NCBI GenBank assembly: GCA_016874005.1
Contig: VGVQ01000002.1
Span: forward strand, 1-64,000
Direction of reading: 5' to 3'
Origin: Gemmatimonadota bacterium
Lineage (GTDB): Bacteria > Gemmatimonadota > Gemmatimonadetes > Gemmatimonadales > GWC2-71-9
DNA length: 64,000 nt
In this document: piece after piece, positions 16,076 to 35,629 of the stretch
How positions within the stretch are numbered: position 1 is the first letter of the stretch
Layout of the letters: each line of letters opens with the position of its first letter
The notes under the pieces: generated by a model
What the model was told of the DNA's origin: nothing
The model's input: the letters and a program-made list of their open reading frames with translations, nothing else
The model's database searches: none
Made by a program: the position numbers and the translations under genes

Positions 16076-18334
16076 GTGCGTCGTCTCCTGGCAGTCGCGG
16101 CCCTTCACTGCCTGCTCCCGGCCGCCGCCGCGCAGCCGGTTCGATACGACGTCTACTCGAACGGCATCCGAATCGCCGAGCTCACGACGGGACCGACCTT
16201 CGGGATCCGAAAGCTCGACGTCCGAACCAACGGGTGGGGGCCCCGCCGCGCTTCTACCGCCCGTTCGGCCGCCACCGACACCGCGTTCGCGTTGTGGGGC
16301 AGCGCCAGGGACCTGGTGGGTCACCTCGGGTCGTTCGCGACCGTGCCGTGGAGCCGGCTCCAGTTGGTGGGTTGGCCCGACCAGGCGACCCTCTACCAGC
16401 GCCACGGCGACATCTCGGCTATGGTGCGGGGCCGTACCGTGAGGGCGGCGCGCTGGGTCGAGCGAGATGCCACCCGTCCCCTCGACCTGGTCATCGGCCC
16501 CGACGACGCGCTCCTGGCCGCGATCGACGTCTCCGGCGAATTAGTGGTCGTTCGGCCCGGCTACGAGGGGTTCACCAACGTGGCTCGGTGGCGCGATCCG
16601 GCCCGGGTCTCCCAGGCCCGTTTCGGCTACCGATCGTTGGGAAAGATCATGGTCCCGATGCGAGATGGGGTCAGGCTCGCCACCCTGGTCTACCTCCCGG
16701 ACGGCCCCGGCGTGGAGGGACCGTTCCCGGTGGTGTTCATCCGGACCCCGTACGGCATTGGCGACCTGATCGACCGAGGATATCAGTACCCGGCGCGCGG
16801 CTACGCGCTGGTCGTACAGGCCACTCGAGGCACCTCGTTCGCGGATCCGGCGCACCGATCGGAAGGCGACTGGTACCCGGTCATCCACGAGCCCGATGAC
16901 GGGGCCGACGCCCTCGATTGGCTCGGCAAGCAACCGTGGTCCGCCGGCAAGGTCTGCATGCAGGGCGGCTCCTATGTCGGCTACACCCAATGGGCTGCCG
17001 CCATGGCCCGCAATCCCACCCTCAAGTGCCTGATTCCGGAAAGCTCGATGGGAACGGCCTTCTCGGACCAGCCCTACATGGGGGGCAGCTTCGTCGAAGG
17101 GATCGCGTTCTACAGCTTCTGGATGCTGGAGCAGCGGCTCTTGCCGAACCGGACCTGGAACGAGGTCCTTCATCACCGCCCCCTGATCGACATCGATCGG
17201 TTTGGGCTCGGCAAGGAGCTGCCCCAGTGGAACACGCTGTTGGGGAACCTCACCAACAACGACTACTGGAAGCGTCAGGACTGGTATCGAGGGACCCATC
17301 CCCGAGCGTTCTCCGCGTTGCAGATCAGCGGATGGTGGGACGACGACTTTCCCGGGACCGAGAGCAATTGGGCCCTGATGGACAAGTACGGCCAGGGCGC
17401 CCAGCGGTTGCTGATCGGCCCCTGGCGTCACGGCTACAACCTCGACCGGCAGCTCAACGGCTATTCGTTCGGGGCCGACGCCCTTCGAGACGACATCGCC
17501 CTCCAGAAACAGATGTGGTATGACTACATCCTGAAGGGCCTCGCCAATGGCGCCGACCAGCCCCGGGCGACGTACTTCGTGTTAGGCAGCAACGAGTGGC
17601 GCGAGGCTTCCGCTTGGCCGCCGGCGGAAGCCCGGGCCGAGAAGTGGTATCTCCACAGTGACGGCCAGGCCGCCCGACTCCCGACCGTTGGGGCGCTGGC
17701 GCAAGCGCCGCCCTCGGGCGACCAGCCGGCCGATCGGTATCGTTACGACCCGGCCAACCCGCCCCCGAACTGGATGAGCTTCGATCAGATGCTCCGCTGG
17801 GAGGACGTCCAGAGCTACCCCTACGACATGAAGGACATCGAGGCGCGGCCCGACGTGGCCGTGTTCACCTCGGCGCCGCTGGAACGCGATCTCACCATCG
17901 CCGGAGAGTTGACCGCGGTGCTCTACGCCTCGACCGACGTCAAGGACACCGATTGGTGGGTCCACGTCTCCGACGTCGATCCCCGGGGTGGGTCGCACCG
18001 GATCACCCAGGGAATGATTCGGGCGCGGTTCCGCCACAACGACGACCCCCAGCACCACATCTTCGGCTCGAACTTCGAAACCGAACGGCTCTTGTCGGGA
18101 GATCCGGCCGAGGTGGTCCGCTACGAGTTTGGAATCCGCTCGATCGCGAACACCTTCAAGAAGGGCAATCGAATCCGGATCGCGATCATGAACGCGCTCG
18201 ACAACTACTCGTTCCCGAACTCCAACACGGGTGGCAACGAAGCCCTGGTGACCGAGACCGTGGTCGGCAACATGGCGATTCACCACTCGGACAGGTATCC
18301 GAGCCACGTGGTGCTGCCGGTGATGCCGCGCTGA
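16076..18334 (+). CDS. CocE/NonD-family secreted hydrolase (X-Pro dipeptidyl-peptidase-like)
   Basis: A 752-residue exported protein with a signal peptide ending at AAAQP. An N-terminal beta-domain of about 190 residues precedes an alpha/beta-hydrolase (PF02129) with the nucleophile Ser299 in GGSYVGY. After it comes the C-terminal jelly roll (PF08530), recognisable by TSAPLERDLTIAGELTA. The family includes cocaine esterase, glutaryl-7-ACA acylase and Xaa-Pro dipeptidyl-peptidases, so the bond cleaved is an ester or amide that cannot be specified. It starts with GTG; GAGGT lies 8 bp upstream, and TATCCT at 16043-16048 could be a -10 box. The stop is 1 bp from the stop of the convergent sulfatase gene. 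Confidence 0.88.
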   Translation: MRRLLAVAALHCLLPAAAAQPVRYDVYSNGIRIAELTTGPTFGIRKLDVRTNGWGPRRASTARSAATDTAFALWGSARDLVGHLGSFATVPWSRLQLVGWPDQATLYQRHGDISAMVRGRTVRAARWVERDATRPLDLVIGPDDALLAAIDVSGELVVVRPGYEGFTNVARWRDPARVSQARFGYRSLGKIMVPMRDGVRLATLVYLPDGPGVEGPFPVVFIRTPYGIGDLIDRGYQYPARGYALVVQATRGTSFADPAHRSEGDWYPVIHEPDDGADALDWLGKQPWSAGKVCMQGGSYVGYTQWAAAMARNPTLKCLIPESSMGTAFSDQPYMGGSFVEGIAFYSFWMLEQRLLPNRTWNEVLHHRPLIDIDRFGLGKELPQWNTLLGNLTNNDYWKRQDWYRGTHPRAFSALQISGWWDDDFPGTESNWALMDKYGQGAQRLLIGPWRHGYNLDRQLNGYSFGADALRDDIALQKQMWYDYILKGLANGADQPRATYFVLGSNEWREASAWPPAEARAEKWYLHSDGQAARLPTVGALAQAPPSGDQPADRYRYDPANPPPNWMSFDQMLRWEDVQSYPYDMKDIEARPDVAVFTSAPLERDLTIAGELTAVLYASTDVKDTDWWVHVSDVDPRGGSHRITQGMIRARFRHNDDPQHHIFGSNFETERLLSGDPAEVVRYEFGIRSIANTFKKGNRIRIAIMNALDNYSFPNSNTGGNEALVTETVVGNMAIHHSDRYPSHVVLPVMPR

Positions 18335-18335
18335 T

Positions 18336-19661
18336 TTACTGACCGGCCCGGGCCTTGGCCTCCGCGTCGACGGCCGTCTCCCACCCGGTCAGCAGCGGCC
18401 GGAGCCGCGCGGCGACGTCGGACCGGGTCGAGGCCAGGTCGGCCCGCTCCCCGAGATCGCGGCGAACGTCGAACAGGTAGGTGTTGGGCCCGTCGATGAG
18501 GAGCTTCCAGTCGCCCGACCGGACCGCTCGTTGGGTGAGCCCACCCGCGGCCGTGCGCCAGAACAAGGTCCGCTCGATTTCGGGGACATCGCCGGAGAGC
18601 ATCGGCAACAGGTCGATCCCATCGGGCGCGGGATCGGCGACCGCGGCGCCGACCGCGGCCAGAATGGTGGCCGTCAGGTCCATCGTCATCCCGACCTGGC
18701 CGCTGACTCGCCCCGCCGGAATTCGCCCCGGCCACCGGAGCAACGCCGGCACCCGGATTCCCCCTTCCCATAACGTCCACTTCCGTCCGAACAGCGGCGC
18801 GTTCCGGGAGAGCCACTCACCGCCATTGTCGTTGGTGAAGATCACCAAGGTGTTGCTGGCCAGCCCCATGCTGTCGAGCGTCGTCAGGATCCGGCCGACC
18901 CCCTGGTCGGCGTTCTCCACCATCGCCACGTAGTCGGCCCGGGTCCCCGTCGCCGAGTCGTACGGCATGAGGTGAGCGGCGTTCCGCCGCGCGACCGACG
19001 GGCGGCCCGGCGGTTGATAGGGCCAATGGGGCGTGCCGTAGCTGACCTCGAGAAAGAACGGTTGTCGGCCCCGCTCCCTGATGAAGCGGACCGATCGTTC
19101 GGTTATCACGTCGGTGAGGTAGCCCTCGACTCTCACCGCCCGCTCGTTCTCGAACAGGTCGGGCCGGCCGTCCCCACCGGTGTGCTGGTAGTAGTCGACG
19201 TAGCCGCTCTTGAAGCCAAAGAAGTAGTCGAATCCGTGGGCGCCCGGGCTGAACGCGGGTTGGTATCCGAGATGCCACTTGCCGATCAAGGCCGTGGCGT
19301 AGCCACGCCTTTTGACCAGCGCCGGCAGCGACGCCTCCGACGCGGGTAAACCCACCTCGGCATGGCGCGAGGTTGGACCGCCGAGCGGTTCCTCGAGCCG
19401 ATAGCGCTGCTGGTAGCGCCCGGTGATGAGCCCGGCCCGGGTCGGAGTGCAGAACTGGCCGTTGGCGTAGAAGTCGGTGAGTCGGACACCCTCGCGGCCG
19501 ATTCGATCGATGTTCGGCGTTCTGACGTCCGGGGCGCCGTAGCTCGAGAGGTCCCCATAGCCCATGTCGTCGGTAATGATCAGGACGACGTTGGGCCGCG
19601 ATTGCGCGGTCGCGGCGGACCAGAGCCCGACCAGCGCGACCATGACCAGCCACAGCCCCAT
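18336..19661 (-). CDS. Secreted sulfatase, type I (formylglycine)
   Basis: A 441-residue exported arylsulfatase-type enzyme (PF00884). The metal-binding start (PNVVLIITDDMGYGD) and the maturation motif C71-T-P-T-R, in which Cys71 would be converted to formylglycine, are present. Downstream GKWHLG and FTNDNGGE complete the active site. The closest described architecture is N-acetylgalactosamine-6-sulfatase or arylsulfatase A, but no substrate can be assigned. A sulfatase-maturing enzyme must be encoded elsewhere. GGGAGGAG lies just before the ATG at 19661; the longer frame to 19709 lacks a ribosome site and would spoil the signal peptide. No other polysaccharide genes are near. Confidence 0.9.
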   Translation of the reverse strand: MGLWLVMVALVGLWSAATAQSRPNVVLIITDDMGYGDLSSYGAPDVRTPNIDRIGREGVRLTDFYANGQFCTPTRAGLITGRYQQRYRLEEPLGGPTSRHAEVGLPASEASLPALVKRRGYATALIGKWHLGYQPAFSPGAHGFDYFFGFKSGYVDYYQHTGGDGRPDLFENERAVRVEGYLTDVITERSVRFIRERGRQPFFLEVSYGTPHWPYQPPGRPSVARRNAAHLMPYDSATGTRADYVAMVENADQGVGRILTTLDSMGLASNTLVIFTNDNGGEWLSRNAPLFGRKWTLWEGGIRVPALLRWPGRIPAGRVSGQVGMTMDLTATILAAVGAAVADPAPDGIDLLPMLSGDVPEIERTLFWRTAAGGLTQRAVRSGDWKLLIDGPNTYLFDVRRDLGERADLASTRSDVAARLRPLLTGWETAVDAEAKARAGQ

Positions 19662-19763
19662 GCGCTCCTCCCGGTTCGTCTGCCGGACGACCGACCCGGC
19701 GCCCTTCAATCATAGCGATGATGTCGGCAGGGAGCCGCCCCACCCGCCCCGGCCCCGCTCGCG

Positions 19764-19804: not shown

Positions 19805-21157
19805 ATGACCACAGCGGGCCCAGCGACGGACGCAGACCAGCCGCCTGGCCGCGCCACCGGCCCCCTTTGGCGTTCCGCCCTCGAACGGGTCGTCGATGTC
19901 CGGCCCGACGAATTCCGGTCCCTGGCCCTTGCCTGCGGCTACTTCTTTTGCCTCTTGGCCAGCTGGTTCATCATGCGGCCGATTCGCGAGCAGTTCGGCG
20001 TGGCCGGCGGCACCGTGAACCTGCCTTGGCTCTACACCGGGACCCTGGTCGCCACGCTCGCGGTCCACCCGCTGTTCGCCGCCTTGGTCGCGCGCTGGCC
20101 ACGCCGGGTGTTCATCACGGTGTCGTATCGGTTCTTCCTCCTCAACATCCTGGTGTTCTTCGGGCTTTTTCGAGTCATCCCCGAGGCGAACACGGTGTGG
20201 CTCGGGCGGGTCTTCTTCGTCTGGACCAGCGTCTTCAACCTGTTCGTCACTTCGGTGTTCTGGGCCTTCATGGTCGATGTCTTCCGAACCGACCAAGCCA
20301 AGCGGCTGTTCGGCTTCATCGGAATCGGGGGGACGGTGGGCGGAATCGCGGGGTCGGCGCTCACCGCGTGGTTGGCCCGGCCGATCGGACCAACGCAACT
20401 GCTCCTGGTTTCCGCGGTGCTGCTCGAGCTCGCGGTGCAATGCGTTCGGCGGCTGAACCAGGTCCACCAGCCCGAGGCGGGCGCCGGCCCCTCGACGCGG
20501 GCCGGGGACGAACCGGTCATCGGCGGCACCAGCCTGGCCGGCGTCTGGCACGTGCTCCGATCGCCGTACCTGATCAACATCTGCCTGTTCATGCTGCTGT
20601 TCACCATCGGCTCGACGGTTCTGTACTTTCAGCAGGCCCAGCTCGCGGAGCGCCATTTCACCGATCGGGCCGCCCAGACGGCCTTCTTCGCGAACCTGGA
20701 CCTCGCCGTCCAGGTCCTCACCGGACTCACTCAGGCCTTTCTCACCGGGCGCCTCATCAAACATTTCGGACTCACCTTCACCCTGGCCCTTCTGCCGGCG
20801 ATCTCGGTTCTCGGGTTCCTGACGATGAGCGCGGCGCCGGTGGCGGCCTCTTTCGCGGTGTTCGTCGTGTTCCAGGTGATCCGCCGAGCCGGGGAATACT
20901 CCTATGCCCGGCCGGCTCGAGAAGTGCTCTATACGGTGTTGTCCCGAGAGGACAAGTACAAGGCCAAGCACCTCATCGATACCTTCGTGTACCGCGGCGG
21001 GGATCAGATCGGGATCTGGAGCATGCGGGGGATGACGGCGCTCGGGTTGGGTCTGACTGGTACCGCCGTCGTCGCCATTCCGCTCTCGGCCCTCTGGCTC
21101 GGGATCGCGGTGTGGCTGGGTCGGCGACATCACACTATCGCGGCGGGAGGACGTTGA
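19805..21157 (+). CDS. Nucleotide-exchanger-like (Npt/AAA-type) MFS transporter
   Basis: A 450-residue protein with about 12 membrane helices. It has the pattern of bacterial ADP/ATP-translocase-like carriers (TLC family, PF03219-like): YFF...RPIREQFG in helix 1, YRFFLLN, VFNLFVTSVFWAFM, AKRLFGFIGIGGT between helices 5 and 6, and ARPAREVLYTVLSREDKYKAK in the second half. In obligate intracellular bacteria this family exchanges nucleotides; in free-living bacteria its role is unknown. GAGG lies 4 bp before the ATG at 19805. The stop at 21157 is 2 bp before the GTG of an ATP-grasp ligase, so the two are in one operon. A clear paralogue lies at 34322-35629. Confidence 0.8.
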   Translation: MTTAGPATDADQPPGRATGPLWRSALERVVDVRPDEFRSLALACGYFFCLLASWFIMRPIREQFGVAGGTVNLPWLYTGTLVATLAVHPLFAALVARWPRRVFITVSYRFFLLNILVFFGLFRVIPEANTVWLGRVFFVWTSVFNLFVTSVFWAFMVDVFRTDQAKRLFGFIGIGGTVGGIAGSALTAWLARPIGPTQLLLVSAVLLELAVQCVRRLNQVHQPEAGAGPSTRAGDEPVIGGTSLAGVWHVLRSPYLINICLFMLLFTIGSTVLYFQQAQLAERHFTDRAAQTAFFANLDLAVQVLTGLTQAFLTGRLIKHFGLTFTLALLPAISVLGFLTMSAAPVAASFAVFVVFQVIRRAGEYSYARPAREVLYTVLSREDKYKAKHLIDTFVYRGGDQIGIWSMRGMTALGLGLTGTAVVAIPLSALWLGIAVWLGRRHHTIAAGGR

Positions 21158-21159
21158 TC

Positions 21160-22200
21160 GTGCGCATTGGGGTCGTCTTCGATTCGCCATACCGGGGTTG
21201 GACCGCGGAACAGCACCGCGAGCAGATGGAGAAGGAGATGGCCGGCAAGGTGCCCGAGGTCACCGAGGTGGACATCGAATACCAGGTCGGTCGTACCCTG
21301 ATCGAGCTCGGCCACGAGATGGAGCTGTTCGGCTTCCACGACGACCTCCGCGAGGTCATCGACCAATGCGGCGCCTGGAAACCCGACCTGGTGGTCAACT
21401 GCGCGGAATCCTGCGGAGACTCGGGGCACGACTACGTGGTGCCGGCCCTGTTGGAGACCCACGGGATTCGCTATACCGGCACCTCGCCCTTGGGTTTGCT
21501 CACCACCAGGGACAAGGCGATGAGCAAGAAGGTCCTCGCGTACCACGGGATTCAAGTCCCCGGGTTCGCCACCTGGAGGACCAACGAGGTCGTTCGAGAC
21601 ACCCCGCCGCTCAAGTTCCCGTTGATCGTCAAGCCGCTCGCCGCCGACGCCTCCGAAGGCATCGCCATGGCGTCGGTGGTGAGCGACCGTGACGAGTTGG
21701 CCGAGCGGGTGAACTTCGTCCACCAGCGCTTCGAGCAACCGGCTATCGCCGAGGAGTTCATCGAAGGCCGGGAGCTGTACGCCAGCGTGGTCGGCAACGA
21801 CGAGACCCTGGAGATCTTGCCCCTCACCGAGCTGGTGTTCGACAAGGAGAAGAACGCGCCCGAGGAACGAATCGCCACCCAGACCACCAAGTGGGACGCG
21901 CCCTACCGCCGGCGCAAGGGCATTCGCTACCAGTTCGCCAGGCCGGTCTCCGCGGCCGCGAAGGAGCGAATCGAGCAGATCTGCCGTACCGCATTCGGAG
22001 CGCTGTGGCTCCACGACTACGCCCGGATCGACCTGAGACTCTCGGAGACCGACGAGATCTGGGTGCTCGAGGCCAACGCGAATCCCTTCATCGCCCGTGG
22101 CCACGAGGTCGCGAACGCCGCCGACAAGGCCGGGATGCCTTATCCCCAGTTCATTCAGCGAATCCTCGATGAAGCGGCCAGGCGTTATGCCCGCGCGTAG
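21160..22200 (+). CDS. ATP-grasp ligase, D-Ala-D-Ala-ligase-like
   Basis: A 346-residue ATP-grasp enzyme. The N-terminal domain opens with RIGVVFDSPY and carries NCAESCGDSGHDYVVPALLE. The ATP-grasp core shows TSPLGLLTTRDKAMSKKVL, FPLIVKPLAADASEGI, EEFIEGRELYASVVGN and the metal site EANANPF. This matches D-Ala-D-Ala-ligase relatives, but the N-terminal substrate loop differs from true Ddl (no EG box in its usual form), so it may ligate other amino acids or peptides. GTG at 21160 has GGGAGG 9 bp upstream; a TTG at 21154 is possible. It sits between the nucleotide-exchanger-like transporter and a zinc-ribbon metallopeptidase, 7 bp from the latter. A role in peptide or cell-wall-like modification is inference. 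Confidence 0.8.
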   Translation: MRIGVVFDSPYRGWTAEQHREQMEKEMAGKVPEVTEVDIEYQVGRTLIELGHEMELFGFHDDLREVIDQCGAWKPDLVVNCAESCGDSGHDYVVPALLETHGIRYTGTSPLGLLTTRDKAMSKKVLAYHGIQVPGFATWRTNEVVRDTPPLKFPLIVKPLAADASEGIAMASVVSDRDELAERVNFVHQRFEQPAIAEEFIEGRELYASVVGNDETLEILPLTELVFDKEKNAPEERIATQTTKWDAPYRRRKGIRYQFARPVSAAAKERIEQICRTAFGALWLHDYARIDLRLSETDEIWVLEANANPFIARGHEVANAADKAGMPYPQFIQRILDEAARRYARA

Positions 22201-22207
22201 GCGGGAC

Positions 22208-23191
22208 ATGAACCCGCTGGACGATCCCCGCTGCCAATGCGGGTACCCGCTCCAGCGCTTCTGGCCGCACTGCCCCGATTGCGGCCGGGCCCAGGTCTGG
22301 CGCGACACCGCGGAGATCTCGGGGGACAGCTGCCACCACTGCGGCTGGGCCATCTCGCCGAAGTTCACCTACTGCCCCTGGTGCGCCACGATGGTGTACG
22401 ATGAGCGGTTCTCCGCCAAGGAACCGCTCAAGGCGCCCAAAGGGTTCCGGATGGACGCCAAGTGCGACTGGGGCTGCGGCGGCGGGGTGCAGTATCCGAT
22501 GCCCAACTGCCCCTGGTGTGGGCGCCGTCAGACCTGGAACGAGGACGCCCAGTTCGAGGGCGACTGCCCCCATTGCGCCCGTGGGGTCGACGACTGGATG
22601 GACTATTGTCCCTGGTGCGGAGAGGACGCCACCGGCCGCGACCTGATCCCCAAGGCCATCCGGCAGGTGCGCCGCCTCCTCAAGGTGAGTGCCGTCGCGG
22701 ATTGGGGCTATCGCATCCTCCTCCGACCCGGCGTGTCCGGCGTCGATCCGAAGTACCCCAAGGTCGTCGAGATCGAGCAGCGTTACGTCACCCGGGCCCG
22801 CCGCCGCGACGAAATCCCTTGGCCGACGCTGATCGGCCTGGTCAGCCACGAACTGGGGCACAGCTTCCTCTACCACCACTGGCATTGGGCCCAGTCGCGC
22901 CGGTTCCAGCGCGCCTTCGGCGAGGTCCGGAAGGCGTACCGTATCAACGACGACGCCTGGGTCGACTTCCAGCGGCGCCGGGTGGCCAATCGCCCGGTCA
23001 ACCACGTCAGCGGCTACGCCGCCCGCCACCCCCAGGAAGACTTCGCCGAGACCTTCCGCTACTACATCACCCGGCGGGGGCGCCTTCGAGAGCTGTTCGC
23101 CGAGCTCGGCAGCAAGCGCAAGGGCGTCCCGGTCTACGAGAAATTCCTGGTGCTGCACGACTACGTGCGCTCCCTCCGGGACTGGCGCTAG
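22208..23191 (+). CDS. Multi-zinc-ribbon metallopeptidase-like protein
   Basis: A 327-residue protein without a signal peptide. The first 150 residues hold a string of zinc-ribbon CxxC knuckles: CQCG/CPDCG, CHHCG/CPWC, CDWGC/CPWCG and CPHC/CPWCG. The second half contains the gluzincin motif HELGH at 214-218 and, about 60 residues later, HPQEDFAETFRYY, which can supply a third ligand. The ending resembles the putative zinc-binding metallopeptidase family COG4307/PF15887. The ATG at 22208 is chosen because it follows the ligase stop by 7 bp; 22187 and 22169 are in frame but overlap the ligase. It could process or sense a product of the ATP-grasp enzyme. No function is established. Confidence 0.75.
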   Translation: MNPLDDPRCQCGYPLQRFWPHCPDCGRAQVWRDTAEISGDSCHHCGWAISPKFTYCPWCATMVYDERFSAKEPLKAPKGFRMDAKCDWGCGGGVQYPMPNCPWCGRRQTWNEDAQFEGDCPHCARGVDDWMDYCPWCGEDATGRDLIPKAIRQVRRLLKVSAVADWGYRILLRPGVSGVDPKYPKVVEIEQRYVTRARRRDEIPWPTLIGLVSHELGHSFLYHHWHWAQSRRFQRAFGEVRKAYRINDDAWVDFQRRRVANRPVNHVSGYAARHPQEDFAETFRYYITRRGRLRELFAELGSKRKGVPVYEKFLVLHDYVRSLRDWR

Positions 23192-34343: not shown

Positions 34344-35629
34344 CCGCCACCCCGGAAACTCAGCCGAACTGGTTCGACAAGCTGGTCCACACCAAGCCCG
34401 GCGAACTCAAGCCGGCGCTGTGGGCGGCGAGCTATTTCTTCTCGATCATGGCGGCGTATTTCATCCTCCGCCCGATTCGCGACGAAGCGGCGGTGGCGGG
34501 CGGGATCCGCAACCTGCCCTGGATGTTCACCGCCACGATGATTGCGATGCTGATCGTCAACCCAGCGTTCGCGGCCCTGGTGGCCCGGTTGTCTCGGCAG
34601 CGGTTCGTCTCGCTCGCCTATCGCTTCTTCGTGGTCAACCTGCTGATCTTCTTCGCGCTCTTCAAGGGTCTCCCGGAGGCCCACCAGATCTGGGTCGGCC
34701 GGGCGTTCTACATCTGGGCCAGCGTGTTCAATTTGTTCGTGGTCTCGGTTTTCTGGGGCTTCATGGCGGACGCCTTCACCTCGGAGCAGGGGAAGCGGCT
34801 CTTCGGGTTCATTGGCGTGGGAGGTACGTTAGGCACGATCGTCGGCTCGACCATCACCGCGAGCCTGGTCCAGGCGGTTGGCAGCGCGGCGCTGCTGTTG
34901 GTCTCGGCGGTGTTCCTCGAGGTGGCGGTCTTGCTGGTGCGACGGCTCTCGTCCTTGTTCCGAGAACGCGCGGCGGCGGGCGGAGCCGCCCCGGCCGAGG
35001 CGGCCATCGGTGGGGGGGTGCTCGACGGGATCAAGCACGTCTTGGCCTCGCCGTATCTGCTCGGCATTGGCCTCTACATGCTGCTCTACACCATCGGCTC
35101 CACCTTCCTCTATTTCCAGCAGGCCTACGTGGTCGAGGCGGCCTATCAGGACCGGGCGGCCCGCACCGCGTTGTTCGCCCGGATCGACCTCGCGGTCAAT
35201 ACCCTGACCATCGTGGCTCAGCTGTTCCTCACCGGCCGCCTGATGCAGCGGCTTGGGATTGCCGCCATGCTGGCGATCGTGCCGGCGATTTCGGTCATCG
35301 GGTTTGCCGGTCTCGGGTTGTGGCCCACCGTGGCCATGTTGGTCGGCTTCCAGGTCCTCCGGCGCGCCGGCAATTTCGCGGTGGCGCGGCCCTCCCGCGA
35401 GGTGCTCTACACCGTGGTGAGCCGCGAGGACAAGTTCAAAGCCAAGTCGTTCAACGACACCTTCGTCTACCGACTCGGCGATCAGATCGGCGCCTGGACC
35501 GACAAGGCAGTCGGGGCCCTCGGCTACGGCATGGGCGGGTTGGCGCTGCTCGCCGCCCCGCTCGCCGCGCTCTGGCTCGTGGTCGGGGTCTGGCTGGGAC
35601 GCCGCCAGGCGCAAATGGCCAAGGCGTAG
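34322..35629 (+). CDS. Nucleotide-exchanger-like (Npt/AAA-type) MFS transporter, second copy
   Basis: A 435-residue protein with about 12 helices, plainly a paralogue of the protein at 19805-21157. RPIRDEAAVAGGIRNLPW, YRFFVVNLLIFFALF, VFNLFVVSVFWGFM, KRLFGFIGVGGT and REVLYTVVSREDKFKAKSF line up position by position. The start is GTG at 34322, inside the epimerase gene. It has no ribosome site; GGAGGAA just after it raises the possibility of a non-ATG start at 34340. The substrate is unknown, as for the first copy. Translational coupling to the Tat-exported SDR is likely. Confidence 0.78.
   Translation: MEEPDPITATPETQPNWFDKLVHTKPGELKPALWAASYFFSIMAAYFILRPIRDEAAVAGGIRNLPWMFTATMIAMLIVNPAFAALVARLSRQRFVSLAYRFFVVNLLIFFALFKGLPEAHQIWVGRAFYIWASVFNLFVVSVFWGFMADAFTSEQGKRLFGFIGVGGTLGTIVGSTITASLVQAVGSAALLLVSAVFLEVAVLLVRRLSSLFRERAAAGGAAPAEAAIGGGVLDGIKHVLASPYLLGIGLYMLLYTIGSTFLYFQQAYVVEAAYQDRAARTALFARIDLAVNTLTIVAQLFLTGRLMQRLGIAAMLAIVPAISVIGFAGLGLWPTVAMLVGFQVLRRAGNFAVARPSREVLYTVVSREDKFKAKSFNDTFVYRLGDQIGAWTDKAVGALGYGMGGLALLAAPLAALWLVVGVWLGRRQAQMAKA

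Follow-up and report, generated by a model that had tools for sequence, protein, structure and literature searches.

Three genes at the locus

The window, a 64,000-nucleotide stretch from a 3.88-Mb draft genome of the Gemmatimonadota, carries three co-directional ORFs whose Pfam domain assignments all exceed the gathering score (Table 1). They encode a transporter, an ATP-grasp protein related to D-Ala-D-Ala ligase (Ddl) that is called LIG here, and a zincin of the Peptidase_Mx family with four zinc ribbons, called ZRP. The original prediction described three tightly packed genes, and the ORFs are indeed present with spacers of 2 bp (transporter to LIG) and 7 bp (LIG to ZRP) as called. However, the second spacer applies only if ZRP starts at position 22208. 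An in-frame ATG at position 22187 would cause ZRP to overlap LIG by 14 bp. Because this overlap and the corresponding N-terminus are the most common arrangement among homologues, the upstream start is preferred, and the apparent spacer is probably an overlap instead.

Table 1. Features of the LIG-ZRP locus and of neighbouring genes in the window
Feature	Position	Strand	Basis and remarks
CocE/PepX-type hydrolase gene	16076-18334
Sulfatase-like gene	18336-19709	-	By sequence
MFS/TLC-like transporter	19805-21157	+	Pfam MFS_1/TLC; judged outside the module
LIG, Ddl-related ATP-grasp ligase	21160-22200	+	Dala_Dala_lig_C; GTG start, 346 aa
LIG C-terminal Mg/ATP motif, R289-D291...E304-N306	22024-22083	+	Alignment to Ddl
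ZRP, four-zinc-ribbon Peptidase_Mx zincin	22187 (or 22208)-23191	+	PF15887, DZR; adjacency and overlap geometry
Four ZRP zinc ribbons	22232-22618	+	16 Cys, C9 to C137 (counted from the 22208 start)
ZRP HELGH, zinc-binding/catalytic motif	22847-22861	+	Invariant; HExGH in MXH
ZRP HPQEDFAETF, with E281 as probable third zinc ligand	23027-23056	+	Invariant residues; motif also in MXH
Second TLC/MFS-like transporter	34346-35620

The transporter gene is a bystander

The transporter scores 26.6 bits against the Pfam TLC profile (cut-off 21), but only 22.6 bits against TIGR00769, the NCBIfam model for NTP/NDP exchange (cut-off 387). The description of this protein as 'nucleotide-exchanger-like' is therefore compatible with the Pfam result, but the label is weak. 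A second transporter gene of this kind in the window encodes a protein that is 54% identical to the first.

Although this TLC-like transporter is common in the phylum, it adjoins LIG in none of the other genomes seen, those of the same genus among them. In the same-genus genomes G132, G037 and G041, the transporter gene resides on other contigs and is not followed by LIG. Its recurrent neighbour is a gene for a CocE/PepX-type hydrolase. A homologue of this gene flanks the transporter on one side in G167 (at a distance of 15 bp), G132 and G041, and a partial homologue is located on its other side in G147. In the window, the sulfatase-like gene lies between the two.

A three-gene operon, in which the transporter would export or import the product of LIG, is suggested by the 2-bp spacing in the window and by the presence of a different MFS gene ahead of LIG in one subclade (L024, L026-L028, L031, L032, L037, L038 and L068). 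However, the latter gene is unrelated, which indicates that the transporters are local additions. Given also that the arrangement in the window recurs in no other genome and that the linkage to the CocE/PepX-type gene is found instead, we consider such an operon to be highly unlikely. Judged from these gene neighbourhoods, the transporter is a chance neighbour and does not belong to the functional set in which it had been placed. In L027, L028, L031, L032, L037 and L038, the MFS-LIG-ZRP genes are preceded, in constant order, by genes for an aminotransferase V, a LOG-type protein and a deoxyhypusine-synthase-like protein.

LIG retains the ATP site of Ddl but not its acceptor residues

LIG matches PF07478, the C-terminal ATP-grasp domain of Ddl, with 81 bits (cut-off 24), and its best score among the NCBIfam Ddl and Van models is 120 bits, which is below the cut-off of 243. 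Its active-site positions were compared with those of the host genome's own Ddl (L004). The latter is an ordinary Ddl with canonical motifs, encoded separately at C1:468254. Among 29 LIG sequences, the ATP/Mg positions K119, K158, E198, E205, K244, R289, D291, E304 and N306 are invariant. In E. coli Ddl numbering, we take S150, Y216, G276 and S281 to be the acceptor residues. The corresponding positions in the 29 LIG sequences are mainly occupied by A, W/H, F/Y/E/D and H/E, respectively. The acceptor comparison consists of these four positions, since the equivalent of Ddl E15 in LIG is without a confident alignment. In addition, F310...H315, just past the Mg/ATP motif, stand where Ddl has G-x-T-x-x-S.

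LIG thus shares with Ddl its fold family and its ATP/Mg residues, but the acceptor positions are lost. This combination of sequence features indicates that LIG is an ATP-dependent ligase with an acceptor other than that of Ddl. The possibility that LIG is an ordinary Ddl, which the original prediction had named as the case against it, is ruled out by the altered motifs, the missed cut-offs and the true Ddl encoded elsewhere in the genome. AlphaFold models from four sequences gave pLDDT values (36 for ZRP and 42 for LIG) that are too low for inspection of the acceptor site. Some LIG genes carry apparent in-frame stops, and the stop in the G022 copy sits at the natural C-terminus. The host genome also contains two other Ddl-like ATP-grasp genes in tandem, together with a GNAT-like ORF (G000:C14:70771-72644; L002 and L003).

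ZRP combines four zinc ribbons with a zincin core

ZRP scores 52.8 bits against the Peptidase_Mx profile PF15887 (gathering score 27) and 31.1 bits against DZR. As originally predicted, four ribbons precede the HELGH core: the 16 cysteines form eight knuckles, and their columns are invariant or nearly so among 21 homologues. Likewise, HELGH and the HPxEDFAE residues H274, P275, E277, D278, F279, A280 and E281 are invariant in this set. By analogy with the ATLF-type gluzincins, the third zinc ligand is likely to be E281. The match of ZRP to the ATLF profile PF07737 has an E value of 0.16.

Inspection of the ZRP sequence revealed no apparent export signal, and the protein begins directly with the zinc ribbons. 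For this reason, we infer that ZRP is cytosolic. This arrangement bears on the possibility that the genes serve a Van-type remodelling of the cell wall, wherein LIG would be a D-Ala-D-X variant ligase and the zincin a cell-wall peptidase. LIG does produce weak matches to Ddl and Van models, but every one of the NCBIfam cut-offs is missed widely and the Ddl acceptor residues are gone. Together with the N-terminus of ZRP, these observations render a role in the cell wall very improbable.

LIG genes adjoin Peptidase_Mx zincins throughout the phylum

The original prediction called for an examination of co-occurrence and synteny, which we addressed with a scan of 200 Gemmatimonadota genomes. Full-length ZRP is found in 29 of the 200, and LIG is located directly upstream on the same strand in 28 of these. 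The exception is G050, where LIG resides on another contig and ZRP adjoins a gene that appears, by sequence, to be Fpg-like. In a profile scan, another 50 LIG genes adjoin MXH, a ribbonless Peptidase_Mx protein of approximately 345 aa. These genes are LIG relatives from other lineages, at approximately 37-46% identity. In total, 78 of the 83 LIG places in the 200 genomes adjoin a Peptidase_Mx zincin (28 ZRP and 50 MXH), and one of the five unpaired places (G154) is at a contig end. Both partners are present in 74 genomes, LIG alone in three, a zincin alone in one and neither in 122, counts that are non-independent because the species share ancestry.

The geometry of the pair is variable. MXH is usually located upstream of LIG with a 4-bp overlap, but order and strand vary and some pairs are convergent. 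Four genomes of one genus (g3) carry both a LIG-ZRP and an MXH-LIG pair, and an MXH-LIG pair is also present on a prophage-edge contig (L079). The genes that flank the pairs differ from genus to genus, such that the adjacency of LIG and zincin is more than long-range synteny. Hence, the proposed link between ligase and metallopeptidase is strongly supported, whereas the transporter is unlinked in relatives. The neighbourhood in these soil Gemmatimonadota points to a shared job of the two enzymes on one substrate.

Several other occurrences were noted. In G020, a remnant of 32-38 codons from the C-terminus of ZRP is present at L059:4460-4555 and no LIG was found in the genome, which is likely to represent a decayed pair. 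Two genomes of genus g27 (L040 and L042) carry a TldD/PmbA pair near MXH-LIG. Also, 25 viral contigs from IMG/VR (L080-L104, some of them near-identical) encode an MXH-like zincin domain with HExxH and HPDEDWAETF motifs, for example at L084:3563-5263 and L091:3971-4594. The fetched stretches around these viral genes contain no LIG, and none of three tested gave a PHROGs match. A search of plasmids for MXH and for f2-type LIG likewise gave no match.

The peptidase partner was probably exchanged

In the LIG tree, whose root depends on long outgroups, the ZRP-paired genes form a single clade (97/95) that is nested among the MXH-paired genes and includes the unlinked LIG of G050. In the zincin tree, which is unrooted and has long branches, ZRP falls with Peptidase_Mx proteins from Pseudomonadota that bear a zinc ribbon (98/99), and MXH and phage homologues lie on the opposite side. 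A comparison of ZRP and MXH with hhalign confirms a common catalytic domain (96.9% probability, E value 1.9e-10). The nesting of the ZRP pairs in one tree and the affiliation of ZRP with the Pseudomonadota zincins in the other suggest that the ligase retained a Peptidase_Mx partner, but that one peptidase branch was probably exchanged for another.

Relationship to known systems

The nearest zincin-tree branch to ZRP comprises Pseudomonadota proteins termed 'putative zinc-binding metallopeptidase' (PF10005 and PF15887), which similarly join a ribbon to a zincin. They differ in having a single PF10005 region rather than four ribbons, and in having mostly other neighbours. In Caballeronia, a zinc-ribbon Peptidase_Mx gene is located among genes for alpha-E, transglutaminase and circularly permuted ATP-grasp proteins, and in Eleftheria and Bradyrhizobium a ZRP-related zincin adjoins transglutaminase genes. 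No such neighbours (alpha-E, transglutaminase or circularly permuted ATP-grasp) were present in several examined among further plasmids with a related zincin.

Alpha-E, a circularly permuted ATP-grasp protein, transglutaminase and Anbu constitute a predicted peptide-synthesis system (Iyer et al. 2009, as outlined in PMC5666114). As outlined there, this system resembles LIG-ZRP in that a predicted ATP-grasp ligase is linked to peptidases, whereas LIG is of the Ddl type and is not permuted. None of the four families was among those identified beside the Gemmatimonadota pairs, whose neighbours were partly scanned. LIG-ZRP belongs to a known predicted class, the ATP-grasp ligases linked to peptidases, or amidoligase-peptidase systems. 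A literature search found no description of the LIG-Peptidase_Mx pair itself, although an earlier mention may exist, as in the 2009 amidoligase work. For ligases of the RimK or tubulin-tyrosine-ligase type, the likeness is confined to the suggested mode of action, because their ATP-grasp family differs from that of LIG.

Graspetide loci also pair ATP-grasp ligases with zincin peptidases (PMC8939145), which raises the question of whether LIG might cyclise a ribosomal precursor whose leader is cut off by the zincin. However, LIG is of the Ddl type, and a search for conserved small ORFs up to 1.5 kb away from 26 LIG-ZRP pairs found none, apart from shadow frames that larger genes produce in one subclade and a match that three to four loci near the genus share. 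The absence of a conserved precursor argues against this route, and a graspetide-like product thus seems very unlikely. A defence system was ruled out, as PADLOC models for anti-phage defence produced no match at the locus.

A proposed two-enzyme module

We propose that LIG and ZRP form a translationally coupled module of two cytosolic enzymes, one making and the other cutting an amide bond on a shared substrate, with a probability that we place at slightly below one half (approximately 0.45). LIG would use ATP to activate a carboxylate as an acyl phosphate, and would then couple this intermediate to an amine to yield a peptide or isopeptide bond. The role of the zincin would be to hydrolyse an amide of this shared substrate, as an eraser that removes what LIG has written or as a trimming enzyme. 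The adjacency of the genes fits both opposed and sequential action, but does not show which of these occurs. The four ribbons probably anchor ZRP on a macromolecular target, and this presumed docking favours a protein substrate over a free dipeptide.

Alternatively, the pair might operate on small molecules, with LIG building a dipeptide or amino-acid conjugate that the zincin recycles. Ddl-like ligases use free amino acids, and plasmid ATP-grasp genes with approximately 33% identity to LIG sit beside genes for unusual diamino acids. These neighbours of the more distant ATP-grasp genes (L054 and L056) are found in Thioflavicoccus (KamA-type, SbnA and ornithine cyclodeaminase) and in Mesorhizobium (KamA-type). 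The MFS gene before LIG in one subclade is also consistent with this route. However, transporters are not conserved beside LIG, the sampled MXH and ZRP loci have no conserved neighbour for amino-acid synthesis, and four zinc ribbons suggest docking on a macromolecule. A small-molecule route is thus possible, but rather unlikely.

The two-enzyme module might serve a peptide or modification pathway. In its most specific form, the proposal is a reversible modification of bacterial proteins, wherein LIG would be the writer that adds amino acids and the zincin an eraser that finds its target via the ribbons and was swapped once for a different branch of its peptidase family. We offer this version as a speculative one that is unlikely to hold in full. 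Regardless, an enzyme that makes amides and an enzyme that cuts them have remained together despite changes in partner, order and strand, and this persistence argues strongly that they share a substrate. Being small, the pair lends itself to direct assay, and it offers a role both for the uncharacterised Peptidase_Mx proteins and for an anonymous family of Ddl-like ATP-grasp proteins that are likely annotated as D-Ala-D-Ala ligases.
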